The translations under genes and the position numbers were made by a program. Under the pieces are notes generated by a model that ran no database searches, was not told the DNA's origin, and saw nothing but the letters and a program-made list of their open reading frames with translations. Shown here piece after piece: positions 44,709-53,851 of a DNA stretch of 61,142 nucleotides; position 1 is the stretch's first letter, and each line of letters opens with the position of its first letter. The DNA is from Sulfurimonas sp. (GTDB lineage: Bacteria > Campylobacterota > Campylobacteria > Campylobacterales > Sulfurimonadaceae): assembly GCA_027064515.1 (NCBI GenBank), contig JAMOPL010000023.1, positions 1 through 61,142 on the forward strand, in the 5' to 3' direction.

Positions 44709-46349
44709 CTATGCACCAGGTATAGTTTGTCTATGTTCAATAGAGTATGTGAAAGTTGGTGTTATTAACCCATCTATATATTTTATAAACTCACCAGTTT
44801 TTGAATCGTATATGCCGATTCTATTACAGTTCCATTCAGAAATCATAGTCCATTTACCGTGATTTGCTGGTTCTGCATGTAAGATTCTAGGAATCACCTC
44901 TTTCCCTTTTTTATTTGTTATAGTTGGGACATCCCATTGGTAAATTACTTTATTTGTTTTAGCATCAGTAATGCTACCTGTTGAAGTTCCTATTGTGATA
45001 ACTCTATCTAGTTTTAAACTTTGTTTATTTACTAGATGAATTTTATTCCAATTTTCAGATCCACCTACAACATTATCTGCCCACAGATAAGGTGTATTTA
45101 TTGATGTACTGATAAATAGTCCAGCACCACTTGTTGGAATCTCTGCGATAATATCAAAGTTATCATCCCAGATAGTAACTTCTCCAAGATTCATATTTAC
45201 AGTAGCTGATAATTGTTGATTAAGTTTTTTGTTATACCAAGAAGCACCTTGTCCTACATGAGGTTTTGAAGATGGTTTCATATAAATTTTACTTACTAGA
45301 GACTTTGTCTTAAAATCTATAACACCAATAAGGTCTGATCCTTGAGAAGCGACAAATAGATATCTACCCATCTCTTTCCCCTCATTTAAAAAACCATTAT
45401 GTATATTTTTTCCAATATCTGAAATAACTCCAACAACAGGAAAACCAGCTTTATAGTAGTCTACAATATAAACACGACCAGCATCTTTAAGTGCAAATGC
45501 GAAATATGGACCATAAGGTGTATCAAAAACACCAGATACTCTAGAAGCAGCTATCTTTCCATCAAAATTTGTAATATTTGAAGTTGGATAAACTTTTAGT
45601 GGTTCTAGTGTTAGGGCATTTAATAGAACAGCTCCACTAGGAAAATAGTTACCAGCTAGTAAATAATTTCCATTAGGGGAAACTGCAAGACCACGAGAAT
45701 CTGTACCAACCTTGACCTCTGCAATTTTTTGTTGACCTGGAGAATTAAGATCAAACATAGTTAATAAACCTGAACGAGATATAGAGTAAGCATAGCGAGG
45801 TAGTTTTTTGTTTGTAACTGTTATATGAACAGCATATCCAGCAGAGTGTCTTGATAGGATATCACCAGTTGTTCCATCAAGAAAAGTAACCCTCTCAGCA
45901 TCTCTTTCTGTAACAAAACAGATATCAGTTGTCTGGTTTACATCTACTGGTTTAGCGTATTTTCTTAAAAACCCAACTCTATCATTAAGTTTTCTCCAAC
46001 TGGATTTTACTGCTTTTAGTGAAAGAATATCTGGTCTTTTTGTTTTAAAATGTTGAAGGTAATCAACCATTTTTAAGGCATCAGCCTGAGAAAACATATC
46101 TTTAAAGGCGGGCATTTTAATAAAAGAATTACCATTTAAAATAGCATCAACAAGTTGATAAGCATTTTTTTTAGCTATTGCTGATGGGCGAAGATCTGAG
46201 CCTATCCCACCAGAGTGATTAGAACTATGACAAACTTTACATTCTTCTTCAAATACTTTTTCTACATCCATATTTGAAACATTAGCAAGTAAATTTAAAT
46301 TTAGAACTGTCATTGAAATAAGTAATATAATAGATTTTTGGAATCTCAT
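44709..46349 (-). CDS. nirS: cytochrome cd1 nitrite reductase
   Basis: N-terminal CKVCHSS heme c site, d1 propeller (MGRYLFVASQGSDLIGVIDF), adjacent d1-heme genes. Confidence 0.95.
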   Translation of the reverse strand: MRFQKSIILLISMTVLNLNLLANVSNMDVEKVFEEECKVCHSSNHSGGIGSDLRPSAIAKKNAYQLVDAILNGNSFIKMPAFKDMFSQADALKMVDYLQHFKTKRPDILSLKAVKSSWRKLNDRVGFLRKYAKPVDVNQTTDICFVTERDAERVTFLDGTTGDILSRHSAGYAVHITVTNKKLPRYAYSISRSGLLTMFDLNSPGQQKIAEVKVGTDSRGLAVSPNGNYLLAGNYFPSGAVLLNALTLEPLKVYPTSNITNFDGKIAASRVSGVFDTPYGPYFAFALKDAGRVYIVDYYKAGFPVVGVISDIGKNIHNGFLNEGKEMGRYLFVASQGSDLIGVIDFKTKSLVSKIYMKPSSKPHVGQGASWYNKKLNQQLSATVNMNLGEVTIWDDNFDIIAEIPTSGAGLFISTSINTPYLWADNVVGGSENWNKIHLVNKQSLKLDRVITIGTSTGSITDAKTNKVIYQWDVPTITNKKGKEVIPRILHAEPANHGKWTMISEWNCNRIGIYDSKTGEFIKYIDGLITPTFTYSIEHRQTIPGA

Positions 46350-46512: not shown

Positions 46513-46857
46513 ATGTCAAATATTCCAAGTGAAGCAAAAAAAATAGAGGTTGATGGTGCAACTGTTGATTTCTTTGAATTAGCAAAAGATGGTGTAAGTA
46601 GTTATTACTTCGATACTTCAGCAGAGGGTCCTCCACATCCAATGGTTAATGCTATGTGTGGTTTAAAGCTTATCAAGGGTACTAATAATAGAGTAGTTAT
46701 GATTAATCATAAAGCACCAGGTGGTCTTTTTGCTAAATTAGAGGCAGATGTAGCATATTGTACTGAAGATATTGATGGTGGTCTTGTTAAAGTTGTTTTT
46801 ACAAGTGTTGAAGCAGGTGTAGATTCTGATTTAAATCAAACATCTTGCCACGGATAA
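46513..46857 (+). CDS. small Cys-containing protein of unknown function
   Basis: 114 aa, no signal peptide; AMCGLK, AYCTED, TSCHG; RBS aaagg upstream. Confidence 0.85.
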   Translation: MSNIPSEAKKIEVDGATVDFFELAKDGVSSYYFDTSAEGPPHPMVNAMCGLKLIKGTNNRVVMINHKAPGGLFAKLEADVAYCTEDIDGGLVKVVFTSVEAGVDSDLNQTSCHG

Positions 46858-46860
46858 ACA

Positions 46861-48096
46861 ATGTCTAGCATCTCGCAAGATTTTGCTCCCCCATTTAAAC
46901 TAATAGCTCCCTTTTTTATATTGGGGAGTTTCTTTTATCTTATTACAGCTCTTTTTCTTTTTTCAATAAATATCGAAGATTTATCATTTGTAAACCCTCA
47001 AGTTTTAGGATTTGTACATCTGTTTTTACTTGGATTTGTGATGATGATTATTTTTGGAGCTATGGCACAACTTGTTCCCGTAGTTCTTGAAGTAGGGCAT
47101 TTTGGGGTTGAACTCTTTTATGCTATTTGGCCTTTACTGCTCATAGGTACGATTCTTATGGTGTTTGGATTTTTGTATTCCCCTCAACTATTACCTTATG
47201 GTGGTGTTGTTGTGCTTGTCTCTATGATGATTTTTGTTATGGAAATATTTATGACAATTTTTAAAGTAGAAAAATTAAATCTTGTTATGAGTAGTGTTCT
47301 TATCTCAAATACATTTCTATTTTTTGGGATTATTTTTGGTCTTTTAATGGCACTATCTTATGCTGGAACTATTGATGTAGATATAGCATCACTTTTAAAA
47401 GGTCATATCTCTTTAGTTATTGGTGGTTATATTACTATCACTATTATGGGATTATCTATCGTCTTAGTGCCTATGTTTACCCTTTCTCATGGATTTTCTA
47501 TGAAGCCCTTAGAGATTGCTATATCACTAATGAGTGTTGGTGTTATCTCTGTTGTAGTTGCTACACTTATGGATATTGTATTTTTAGAGTATATTGGGTA
47601 TCTATTGTCGGCTATTTCTATGCTATTTTATTTTTATATTATCTATATTATCTATAAAACAAGACCTAGAAAAGAGAATGATGTATATGCAATATCGTTG
47701 ATGTTTTCATACATATCTATGCTCGTTGCATTAGCATTAGGTGTTTTATATTTTATAGTTGGTAGTGAGAATCTACTTTTAGCTTCTGGATGGTTACTAA
47801 TTTATGGATTTTTTTCTTTTCTAATTACAGGACATATCTATAAAATTATCCCATTTTTGGTTTGGTTTGAGAAATTTTCACCACTTGTAGGGAAACAAAA
47901 AGTACCAATGTTAGCCGATATGGTACCGTACAAAAGTTCACAGGCACAGTTTGTTTTTTCAGCTGTTGGTGTTGTTTTAATAACAATAGCACTTGTAGTG
48001 CAAAGTAATATACTTATAAGTGCAGGAGCATCATTTTTGGTTATTGGTGCTTTGGCGTTTATACGAAGTGTATTTTATATGATAAATTTTAAATAA
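46861..48096 (+). CDS. polytopic membrane protein, NnrS-like / heme-copper-oxidase-subunit-I-like
   Basis: About 12 TM; His in or near TMs: GFVHLFLLGF, EVGHFG, KGHISLVIGGY, TLSHGFS, TGHIYKIIPFLVWFE. Confidence 0.75.
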   Translation: MSSISQDFAPPFKLIAPFFILGSFFYLITALFLFSINIEDLSFVNPQVLGFVHLFLLGFVMMIIFGAMAQLVPVVLEVGHFGVELFYAIWPLLLIGTILMVFGFLYSPQLLPYGGVVVLVSMMIFVMEIFMTIFKVEKLNLVMSSVLISNTFLFFGIIFGLLMALSYAGTIDVDIASLLKGHISLVIGGYITITIMGLSIVLVPMFTLSHGFSMKPLEIAISLMSVGVISVVVATLMDIVFLEYIGYLLSAISMLFYFYIIYIIYKTRPRKENDVYAISLMFSYISMLVALALGVLYFIVGSENLLLASGWLLIYGFFSFLITGHIYKIIPFLVWFEKFSPLVGKQKVPMLADMVPYKSSQAQFVFSAVGVVLITIALVVQSNILISAGASFLVIGALAFIRSVFYMINFK

Positions 48097-48108
48097 GGAT
48101 TTTACAAA

Positions 48109-48411
48109 ATGTTATACACAAAAGAGGAACTATTTTTAGCAATTTCTACTGTTATTGACCCTGAGGTTGGATTTAATCTTGTAGAGATGGGTCTTATTTA
48201 TGATGCCAAATCTGATGATGAGGGTAATGTAAAAGTTACTATGACCTTATCAACAAAAGCTTGTCCATTGCATCAGATGATTGTTCAGTGGGTTAAAGAA
48301 TCTGTTGAGAAGATGGATGGAATAAAAGAGGTTGAAGTTGAGGTTGTTTGGGAACCAGTATGGAATATCTCAATGGCTGACGATAATGTTAAAAAAGCAC
48401 TAGGTGCTTAA
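48109..48411 (+). CDS. DUF59/MIP18-family (PaaD/SufT-like) protein
   Basis: VIDPEVGFNLVEMGLIYD; TLSTKACPLHQMI. Confidence 0.92.
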   Translation: MLYTKEELFLAISTVIDPEVGFNLVEMGLIYDAKSDDEGNVKVTMTLSTKACPLHQMIVQWVKESVEKMDGIKEVEVEVVWEPVWNISMADDNVKKALGA

Positions 48412-50749: not shown

Positions 50750-51235
50750 ATGTTGATTTTAAATAGTGGTGGAACATTTAACAAAAGATATAATGAGATA
50801 AGTGGGGAGTTAGAAGTTCCTTTTGATAATTTAGCGATAGATACTATACTTAAAAATTATAATGATAATTTTAATATCGCTGGGGTTGTTTATAAAGATA
50901 GTCTTGAGATGGATATAAATGATAGAAAGATGCTTACAAATATTATTATGGAATCTGAAGAGGATACTTTTATAGTGGTTCATGGAACAGATACTATGGA
51001 TGAAACAGCAGAGTTTTTTGATGCGATATTTGATGATAGAAAGATAATTTTAGTGGGTGCTATGAAACCATTTGAGATAGATAAGATAGAATCTAGTTTT
51101 AATCTTGGGATGGCTATTGGTTTTGCTAACTCTCAAAATGATGATGGAATCTATATATGTATGAGTGGTTTTGTTCAGCCTTGGGATAAAATCAAAAAAA
51201 ACAGGGTAATAGGGAAGTTTGAAGTTGTCGAATAA
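50750..51235 (+). CDS. single-domain asparaginase-like protein
   Basis: ILNSGGTFNKRY and VVHGTDTMDETAEFF; lacks C-terminal domain. Confidence 0.85.
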   Translation: MLILNSGGTFNKRYNEISGELEVPFDNLAIDTILKNYNDNFNIAGVVYKDSLEMDINDRKMLTNIIMESEEDTFIVVHGTDTMDETAEFFDAIFDDRKIILVGAMKPFEIDKIESSFNLGMAIGFANSQNDDGIYICMSGFVQPWDKIKKNRVIGKFEVVE

Positions 51236-53624
51236 AATAGCTTGTACACATTGTCACTTAGAATTTAATGAAGATGTGCTAATAAAAGATGGTGAGCATT
51301 ATTTTTGTTGTAATGGTTGTCAAGGAGTTTATCATCTACTAAGTGATGAGGGGCTTGATAGTTTTTATGATAAACTAGGTTCAAATACTTTAACTGCTCC
51401 AACTACTCAATATGAAGATTCTTCTAATTTTGATTCACCAGCTTTTTATGATAAATTTGTAAAAGAAAATAGTGAAGGTTTTAATGAAGTTTCACTTATC
51501 ATAGAGGGGATTCACTGTTCTGCTTGTGTTTGGTTAAATGAAAAAGCTCTTCACAAAATGGATGGAATCATTGATGCAAGTATAAATTTCACAAATAATA
51601 AAGCTGTGATTACTTGGGTAGATAAAGTGGTAAAACTATCACAAATTATAGATATGATTCGTGCTATTGGTTACAATGCTTTTCCTTATGATTCTTCTAT
51701 CCAAGAGGCTCATGCGAATAAAGAGAGAAAAGATTACTATCTAAGAATGGCAGTTGCAATTTTTTCATCTATGAATATTATGTGGATAGCAGTTGCTCAA
51801 TATGCTGGATATTTTTCTGGAATGTCTCAAGATATAAAAACTATTTTAAATATTGGGGAGTGGATTTTAGCTACTCCTGTTCTTTTTTATAGTGGTTGGA
51901 TATTTTTTAGAGGTGCTTACTATGGTTTAAAAACTAGAGTTGTCAATATGGATATTTTAGTATCAACAGGAGCTTTATTAACTTATATTTATTCTATTTA
52001 TATAACCATTATGGAAAATGGGGAAGCCTATTTTGATTCTGTAACTATGATAATAAGTTTTGTTTTAGTAGGTAAATTTTTAGAGGTTTTAAGCAAAAAA
52101 AGTGCGGCTGATGCTCTTGATATGATTGGTAAAAATATACCAACAGAAGTAAATATTATTAGAGATGAAAAGATTATATCTTGTAAATTAGCTGATGTAG
52201 TTGTTGGTGATACTATTGTTGTTTCTACTGGTGAAAAAGTTTTATTTGATGGTGAGATTCTAAAAGGGAGTGGTTCTTTTGATGAATCTAGTTTAACGGG
52301 TGAGAGTGAGCCTATCTATAAAACTATTGGTGATAGTGTGGTTAGTGGGACTGTAAGTTTAGATGCTGATATACACTATGAAGCTAGTAAAGATTTTGAA
52401 CACTCTACACTTTCAAATTTAGTAGCACTTTTGGAAACAGCGATACTTAAAAAACCAAAAATTGAACAGATGGCAAATAGATTATCAGAGTGGTTTTCTT
52501 CTGTGATTTTAGGATTATCTCTTATCACTTTTTTAGTATGGTGGTTTTTAGGGAGTGGTTTTGAACTCTCTTTTATGGTTGCTATATCTGTTATTGTTAT
52601 AGCTTGTCCTTGTGCTTTAGCTTTGGCTACACCTGTTGCAACATTAGTGGGGCTTAGTCTAGGAGCAAATAGAGGAATCCTTTTTAAGGAAGCTGCTCAA
52701 CTTGAAACTATGGCAAAGGTAGATACTTTAGTGTTGGATAAAACAGGAACTATAACAGTGGGTAAACCTGAGGTTATTAATGAAAATATCTATAAAGATT
52801 TTGATAAAAATATTTTATATTCACTTGTAAAATCATCTAGGCACCCAGTAGCAAAAGGGATAGCAAATTATTTAAAATTGGATGAAAATATCGATGAGTA
52901 TATTTTAGATGATTATACTCAGATTCCAGCATCTGGAATCTCTGCTAGATATAATAAGAGTAAAATTTTAGGTGGTAATCTAAAACTTCTAGTAGATAAT
53001 GGTTTAGAGAGTGAATTTGAGAGTGATAATACACTCTTTTACTTTAGTGTTGATGATTCTATTGTTGCTATTTATGAGCTACGAGATAGTATAAAAGATA
53101 ATGCTAAAGAGTTAGTTAGTAACCTAAATAATAAAGGTATATCGGTAGTGATGCTTACTGGTGATCATGCAAATACTGCAAAACGGGTAGCTTTAGAGGT
53201 TGGGATAACCCAGTATGAAAGTGAACAAACTCCAGAAGATAAATCAAAATATATTGAGAATCTTCATACTCAAGATAAAGTAGTTGTGATGGTTGGCGAT
53301 GGTGTGAATGATATTTTAGCACTCGCTCAAGCTGATATTGGGATTGTTATGGGTAGTGGAAGTGATATAGCTGTTGATGTTGGAGATGTTGTTCTTTTGG
53401 ATGATTCTCTCCGTTCACTAGAAGATTCTTTTAAAATATCTCGTACAACTTTTGGACTTATAAAACAAAATCTTGGAATCTCTTTGGTTTATAATGCTAT
53501 TACCGTTCCCCTTGCAATGACAGGATATGTTATACCGTTGGTCGCTGCAATATCTATGAGTGTGAGTTCATTACTTGTTGTTGGTAACTCTATGCGAATC
53601 CGTTATAAATGGAATAAAAATTAA
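51219..53624 (+). CDS. ccoI: cbb3-oxidase-assembly copper P-type ATPase (CcoI/FixI-like)
   Basis: CTHCHLEF/FCCNGCQGVYHLL, HMA GIHCSACVW, CPCALALATP, DKTGTIT; TTG start. Confidence 0.92.
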   Translation: MKLSNKIACTHCHLEFNEDVLIKDGEHYFCCNGCQGVYHLLSDEGLDSFYDKLGSNTLTAPTTQYEDSSNFDSPAFYDKFVKENSEGFNEVSLIIEGIHCSACVWLNEKALHKMDGIIDASINFTNNKAVITWVDKVVKLSQIIDMIRAIGYNAFPYDSSIQEAHANKERKDYYLRMAVAIFSSMNIMWIAVAQYAGYFSGMSQDIKTILNIGEWILATPVLFYSGWIFFRGAYYGLKTRVVNMDILVSTGALLTYIYSIYITIMENGEAYFDSVTMIISFVLVGKFLEVLSKKSAADALDMIGKNIPTEVNIIRDEKIISCKLADVVVGDTIVVSTGEKVLFDGEILKGSGSFDESSLTGESEPIYKTIGDSVVSGTVSLDADIHYEASKDFEHSTLSNLVALLETAILKKPKIEQMANRLSEWFSSVILGLSLITFLVWWFLGSGFELSFMVAISVIVIACPCALALATPVATLVGLSLGANRGILFKEAAQLETMAKVDTLVLDKTGTITVGKPEVINENIYKDFDKNILYSLVKSSRHPVAKGIANYLKLDENIDEYILDDYTQIPASGISARYNKSKILGGNLKLLVDNGLESEFESDNTLFYFSVDDSIVAIYELRDSIKDNAKELVSNLNNKGISVVMLTGDHANTAKRVALEVGITQYESEQTPEDKSKYIENLHTQDKVVVMVGDGVNDILALAQADIGIVMGSGSDIAVDVGDVVLLDDSLRSLEDSFKISRTTFGLIKQNLGISLVYNAITVPLAMTGYVIPLVAAISMSVSSLLVVGNSMRIRYKWNKN

Positions 53625-53635
53625 GGTGGTAAAAA

Positions 53636-53851
53636 ATGGATAATTGGGTAATAGCTATGATGCTAGGAGCATCTATATTTTTAGGATCAATTGCACTTTT
53701 TGCTTTTCTTTGGGCTGTTAAAAATGGTCAGTTTGATGATCAAGAGAAGTTTTTAAATGGTGCTAAGTTTGATAATGAAGAGGAATTGAATGACGCTGTA
53801 AATCAAGAGAGAAAAAAGGAAAAGTTGAAAAAAAGTTATAGACCAGAATAA
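53636..53851 (+). CDS. ccoS: CcoS-like cbb3 oxidase maturation protein
   Basis: Small one-TM protein directly after ccoI; FLWAVKNGQFDDQE. Confidence 0.92.
   Translation: MDNWVIAMMLGASIFLGSIALFAFLWAVKNGQFDDQEKFLNGAKFDNEEELNDAVNQERKKEKLKKSYRPE

Follow-up and report, generated by a model that had tools for sequence, protein, structure and literature searches.

What does a compact three-gene unit contribute beside the nitrite reductase gene nirS in a Sulfurimonas genome? Denitrifiers need their Fe-S and haem enzymes kept alive in NO that they make themselves, and the accessory genes are largely unassigned. The window (the whole stretch of DNA analysed, 61,142 nucleotides, from a 1.85-Mb assembly that is 80% complete) holds three genes, here called P1, P2 and P3 (together, the trio), which a first-pass annotation had put forward as an under-described operon and as a nitric-oxide-associated unit beside nirS.

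Anatomy of the locus

The relevant features of the window are the following.

44709-46349, minus strand: nirS (cd1 nitrite reductase; PF02239, 196 bits), outside the unit, divergent, sharing its promoter region with P1
46440-46453, no strand: FNR/DNR-type palindrome TTGATACATATCAA, between nirS and P1
46513-46857, plus strand: P1 (114 aa), open reading frame (ORF); divergent DUF2249 protein, predicted TusA/SirA-like fold
46846-46848, plus strand: codon of P1 C112, the sole near-invariant Cys (alignment column nearly invariant)
46861-48096, plus strand: P2 (411 aa), ORF; 12 transmembrane segments (TM), predicted haem-copper-oxidase (HCO) fold, putative HCO-homology type
47017-47019, plus strand: codon of P2 H53 (TM2), invariant in 86/86 homologues
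47404-47406, plus strand: codon of P2 H182 (TM6), invariant in 86/86 homologues
48109-48411, plus strand: P3 (100 aa), ORF; DUF59 / FeS_assembly_P (PF01883), metal-sulfur cluster assembly factor type

The gaps between the ORFs, 3 bp from P1 to P2 and 12 bp from P2 to P3, are exactly those claimed for three tightly packed genes. Downstream of nirS lie a small cytochrome c gene, nirJ, a NirF-like gene and a gene that we take, by eye from its sequence, to be NirE-like. Against PF02239 the NirS of the window reaches about 196 bits, like that of other genomes in its genus, and another set of Campylobacterota NirS reaches 387-412 bits, so that Campylobacterota hold two clearly distinct NirS classes by this score. 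At 51219-53851 a metal-type P-ATPase is followed by a 71-aa CcoS-like protein, presumably the usual cbb3 oxidase maturation pair.

Co-inheritance of the three genes

P1 is present in 64 of the 121 genomes of the same family, and in nearly all of 40 loci examined the three genes are adjacent and co-directional. Among 135 strong P2 loci, 111 carry the full operon (P2 with P1 as its immediate upstream and P3 as its immediate downstream neighbour, all on one strand), with median intergenic gaps of 8 and 9 bp. Contig ends or simple ORF calling account for some of the exceptions. In 298 evenly sampled Campylobacterota genomes, which are not phylogenetically independent and were scored with thresholds set for this analysis, P1 was found in 112 (a short paralogue, P1b, being left out of this count), P2 in 109 and P3 in 107. 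All three occur together in 107 genomes, P2 stands without P1 and P3 in two, and P3 without P2 in none. P1, P2 and P3 are one co-inherited module: the conserved association in relatives on which the first-pass annotation had staked its proposal is there, and the parts are almost never found alone.

The description as an under-described operon likewise holds, for a conserved unit with an FNR/DNR-type box and ties to nitrogen-oxide respiration. A literature search, with poor coverage of subscription papers, returned no description of the three-gene module. As far as checked, the DUF2249-HCOH-DUF59 unit with its promoter box is new; the class of P2 (HCO-homology, HCOH) is already known.

The DUF2249 protein P1

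P1 had at first been assigned to no recognised family; it is in fact a DUF2249 protein. DUF2249 (PF10006) is matched by 19 of 30 P1 relatives (best 2e-8) and TusA by 3 of 30, and in profile-profile comparison the P1-relative profile aligns with proteins annotated as DUF2249 in Thermus, Ensifer and Halobaculum (6e-10, 96.6%). Judged by these profiles P1 is a divergent DUF2249 member, an assignment that holds for the family, the window protein alone having no Pfam match. DUF2249 is known yet uncharacterised, and the expectation that P1 would not turn out to be a characterised family therefore stands.

A search with the P1 sequence against the PDB returned no real relatives. The structural model (pLDDT 87.6), which has an N-terminal beta-hairpin extension, superposes on the SirA-like protein 3hz7 with a modest Z of 7.8 (1.9 Å over 70 residues), and P1 is predicted to have a TusA-like alpha/beta fold, to which the TusA matches of 3 of 30 relatives lend support. 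This fold would be common to P1 and the TusA/SirA sulfurtransferases, whereas P1 lacks their catalytic CPxP Cys: in the window protein and nearly all trio homologues it is replaced by Pro (GPPHP/GPPEP). A rusticyanin-like identity was rejected, the NCBIfam match (6e-4, 45 residues) lying far under the cut-off and the predicted fold being TusA-like.

Three Cys sites had been highlighted in P1. The C-terminal one (TSCHG in the window) is kept, with a Cys within the last eight residues in 45 of 47 homologues, but those in MCGLK and YCTED (C49 and C83) are not conserved in the alignment. An Ensifer DUF2249 protein from a similar cluster ends in CDCCCGSSSGH and thus has a Cys tail at the same place. 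The short paralogue P1b is a DUF2249 protein without the Cys tail (L002 1492-1776; L072-L085; e.g., L076, PF10006 1e-4). It is located 3' of 420-aa and 327-aa proteins, often 5' of a 1041-aa membrane protein; we take the 420-aa neighbour to be peptidase-like and the 1041-aa protein to be a cytochrome c biogenesis (CcsBA-type) look-alike.

The membrane protein P2

P2 had been described as a protein of about 12 TM, and its AF2 model (pLDDT 88.4, pTM 0.89) indeed has 12. By this model P2 has the fold of the haem-copper-oxidase superfamily, superposing on CcoN of cbb3 oxidase (8smr_E) with Z 33.0 and an rmsd of 3.4 Å over 383 residues, and on NorB of cNOR (4xyd_A) with Z 32.2. COX1 (PF00115) is weakly matched by 7 of 40 P2 homologues (2.2e-5), searching the PDB with the P2 sequence gave no genuine relative, and hhalign against CcoN/NorB yielded weak alignments in local mode and trivial end alignments in global mode. 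Within P2, hhalign detects three 4-TM repeats (EU1-EU2 2.4e-7, EU2-EU3 2.3e-6). A one-unit shift, with EU1 of P2 equivalent to EU3 of the HCOs and EU2 to their EU1 (25-33% probability), is only suggestive; it would make H53 and H182 the low-spin haem pair.

These two residues, in TM2 and TM6, are the same in all 86 homologues compared, from Campylobacterota, Thermus, Ensifer and Halobaculum, and Q70 and W335 are also kept. H325 (TM10) is lost in Thermus, Ensifer and Halobaculum, and H210 in some homologues. Catalytic HCOs and NO reductases use six His ligands (TM2, TM6, a His-His pair in TM7 and an HxH motif in TM10) for their haems and CuB/FeB; neither the TM7 pair nor the TM10 motif is conserved in the P2 alignment. 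P2 would thus share with CcoN/NorB (PF00115) a fold over about 380 residues (Z 32-33) but not the catalytic His set. We rejected it as a catalytic HCO or NO reductase, since the binuclear-centre His are absent, two His are invariant and a NorB-like protein is encoded separately. NnrS is also a 12-TM protein from the NO/denitrification context and at times sits beside the trio (L065, L067), but at E<=1 none of 40 P2 homologues matches PF05940, and the same genome encodes a true NnrS (203 bits) elsewhere, as it does CcoN and the NorB-like protein; P2 as NnrS was rejected on these grounds. The first-pass annotation is thus borne out as to an HCO-like membrane protein, and P2 is neither an ordinary NnrS nor a NO reductase subunit, in line with its proposal.

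Might P2 nevertheless remove NO itself, as a divergent NO reductase or an NO-dioxygenase-like haem protein helped by P1 and P3? The fold similarity to cNOR, the FNR/DNR-type box and the Ensifer homologue located between nor and nirK genes all point that way. Set against them are the two invariant His, without the TM7 pair or the TM10 HxH, and the separate NorB-like protein and NnrS in the window's genome, and we regard direct NO removal as distinctly unlikely.

A closer match is offered by the HCO-homology (HCOH) proteins, described by Pei et al. in 2014 (Protein Sci 23:1220, a paper cited in PMC11218638), which reportedly have two conserved His and a single haem. Like P2, they are said to combine 12 TM, the HCO fold, three 4-TM units and two conserved His with a denitrification context. 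By this definition P2 fits with the HCOH proteins of the three-unit type, and its haem is putative. Beyond that description, the present analysis documents the three-gene unit, its near-complete co-inheritance and the FNR/DNR box. In a genome of the window's genus, a second HCO-homology protein (L210 8166-10073) clusters with an 80-aa DUF2249/TusA protein and a hemerythrin (PF01814), thioredoxin-like genes lying close by; this makes a parallel DUF2249-HCOH pair.

The DUF59 protein P3

P3 had been placed in the DUF59/MIP18 family, and this is confirmed: it scores 61.1 bits against PF01883 (cut-off 23.5), and the hallmark residues D17, P18 and E19 (DPE) and C52, P53 and H55 (CP) are invariant. 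The nearest solved relative is TM0487 (1uwd, 6e-25). P3 thus shares its family with SufT, PaaD and MIP18, but reaches only 88.9 bits against SufT (TIGR02945 SUF_assoc; equivalog cut-off 143.4) and also falls under the PaaD equivalog cut-off; in contrast to SufT/PaaD, no suf or paa genes occur among the trio neighbours examined.

The promoter box

The perfect FNR/DNR box announced for the operon is present: TTGATACATATCAA lies 5' of both genes, about 59 bp from the start codon of P1 and 91 bp from nirS. The AT-rich 61-kb window contains 11 sites with at most one mismatch where 9.7 are expected, and the lone box is therefore not significant by itself. Of 114 distinct homologous trios, however, 56 have TTGATNNNNATCAA upstream without mismatch and 80 have it with at most one, as opposed to 32 and 72, respectively, of 574 control promoters from the same loci. 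In the trios, which come from several families, the box mostly sits 55-70 bp (about 64) upstream of the P1 start. Because the box is kept at a steady spacing and well above the control promoters, this pattern is strong evidence that the trio is under FNR/DNR/NnrR-type control. Of the 135 P2 loci, 35 have a CRP/FNR-type gene at most four genes away. In the window's genome, of the first 15 loci with an exact box, the nirS/P1 site alone precedes gene starts and one other overlaps a start; the norB, nnrS and ccoN loci of this genome show no box at up to one mismatch.

Links to nitrogen-oxide respiration

The trio occurs in 41 of the 46 genomes with a full-strength nirS (absent in 5) and in 78 of the 88 with nosZ (absent in 10). 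Conversely, 66 of the genomes with the trio are without nirS, and in 23 of them nosZ is missing as well, so that NO made by NirS is no requirement. Only one of 135 P2 loci, that of the window itself, has nirS within four genes, and elsewhere the neighbours include nirDL/sirC homologues and NapA, NIR_SIR, DUF1858 and FmdE-type proteins, as well as NnrS (2e-48 and 7e-51). Taken together, the nirS/nosZ counts, the distance to nirS and the varied neighbours indicate that the trio belongs to nitrate/NO respiration generally and not to NirS.

A nirS-specific link was accordingly rejected. The divergent arrangement with nirS is real in the window but is no conserved trait, and co-occurrence with nirS across Campylobacterota, proposed as a check, holds for most genomes with nirS but not from the trio to nirS. 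What remains of the nitric-oxide-associated unit is its link to nitrogen-oxide respiration. FmdE-like 200-aa proteins adjoin the trio in several families (by profile at L205 7749-8351, as a weak FmdE match at L051 11351-11947 and by eye at L207 12587-13189).

P3 could be a target-specific Fe-S inserter, the role generally ascribed to DUF59 proteins of the PaaD type, the trio then being a dedicated maturation factor for a specific respiratory enzyme (Fe-S/Moco of Nap/Nar, or cofactors of NosZ/NOR) to which NO stress is irrelevant. Besides the family of P3, the trio's presence in genomes without nirS and nosZ is in keeping with this, as is locus L204, where napA (PF00384, 936 aa) lies beside the trio. 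The partners, however, vary by lineage (Nap, Nar, NirK/Nor), so that no single client suits all lineages, and the need for a protein with the haem-oxidase fold is left without a reason. Even with the finding that NarG is inactive in Thermus without DrpA/DrpB (PMC6282519), we hold such a factor to be unlikely, if worth keeping in view.

Variants outside Campylobacterota

P2 homologues are also found on plasmids of Thermus, rhizobia and haloarchaea. In T. thermophilus JL-18, narGHJI is followed by a transporter, two DUF2249 genes in the position of DrpA/DrpB, a hypothetical protein, a protoglobin, the P2 homologue and DUF59. The order in Ensifer canadensis is nor genes, hemN, DUF2249, P2 homologue, DUF2249, DUF59, NnrS, nirK and a CRP/FNR gene, and in Halobaculum a DUF2249 gene lies near the P2 homologue in a trio that is not compact. 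An Aliarcobacter butzleri plasmid (NZ_CP104333.1, L255 8664-10537) has the complete trio flanked by Tn3 and IS21 transposases; the trio can therefore probably move between strains.

DrpA and DrpB of Thermus thermophilus are DUF2249 proteins like P1, encoded downstream of nar in a plasmid region that goes on to the P2 homologue and DUF59. They differ from P1 in that DrpA (72 aa) is reported to be periplasmic and has no Cys tail, and DrpB has extra domains. When both proteins are missing, Thermus still makes NarG, but nitrate reductase activity falls to about 1/10 of the wild-type level and nitrate dependence is lost, a phenotype that the authors attribute to nitrate sensing (PMC6282519).

By analogy, P2 and P1 might act as membrane sensors of nitrate or NO that adjust the regulators of denitrification. 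The DUF2249 family common to P1 and DrpA, the lost nitrate dependence of the drpAB mutants (PMC6282519) and the CRP/FNR genes adjoining many trios would agree with such a signalling module. Yet the Fe-S assembly protein P3 belongs to the unit no less tightly than P1, and profile searches with the three proteins gave neither a DNA-binding nor a transmitter domain. We consider signalling very doubtful.

Proposed function

In M. tuberculosis, depletion of the DUF59 protein SufT reduces Fe-S maturation and lowers survival under NO (PMC9045647), and haloarchaeal denitrification induces DUF2249 genes (PMC11218638). From these two papers, the DrpA/DrpB work and the anatomy of the trio, we infer upkeep of Fe-S and haem enzymes in NO. 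Our preferred reading, tentative and a little short of an even call, is that the trio is an FNR/DNR-controlled accessory module whose membrane haem protein works with a DUF2249 partner and an Fe-S carrier to keep metal enzymes active in nitrate/NO respiration. In its favour are the co-inheritance, the tight operon, the box spacing, the nosZ/nirS association, the CRP/FNR, NnrS, NapA, NIR_SIR and DUF1858 neighbours, the nar/nor variants, the HCO fold of P2 with two invariant His and no binuclear set, the DUF59 family of P3 and the SufT and DrpA/DrpB findings; against it count the 23 trio genomes with neither nirS nor nosZ, the 5 nirS and 10 nosZ genomes without the trio, the nitrate-sensing explanation given for DrpA/DrpB and the loss of H325 outside Campylobacterota.

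Under this preferred reading, an FNR/DNR-family regulator would induce the trio during nitrate or nitrite respiration, with NO rather than nitrate as the presumed stress. P2, deprived of the catalytic binuclear centre, would probably retain a single b-type haem with H53 and H182 as its ligands; at the membrane it may sense, bind or hand over NO, electrons or haem iron. Cytosolic P1 would dock on P2 via its TusA-like domain, its flexible Cys tail handling thiol or metal cargo, and P3 might load or repair Fe-S or other iron sites in NO-damaged respiratory enzymes. A bolder version, which we think improbable though conceivable, is an undescribed membrane-coupled system, shared by Campylobacterota and, as variants, by Thermus and rhizobia, in which a single-haem, non-catalytic P2 passes an NO-derived signal, electrons or iron via the Cys-tailed P1 to P3, rebuilding NO-damaged Fe-S centres on site.

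Biological significance

The bolder version, if true, would give the HCO fold a role other than oxygen or NO reduction. Campylobacterota include many nitrate and N2O respirers, and the trio, found in 107 of 298 of their genomes, recurs in other phyla. Three orphan families are at stake, namely DUF2249, HCO-homology and the DUF59 branch of P3; as the trio is widespread and near-always co-inherited, one deletion mutant could give all three a function.
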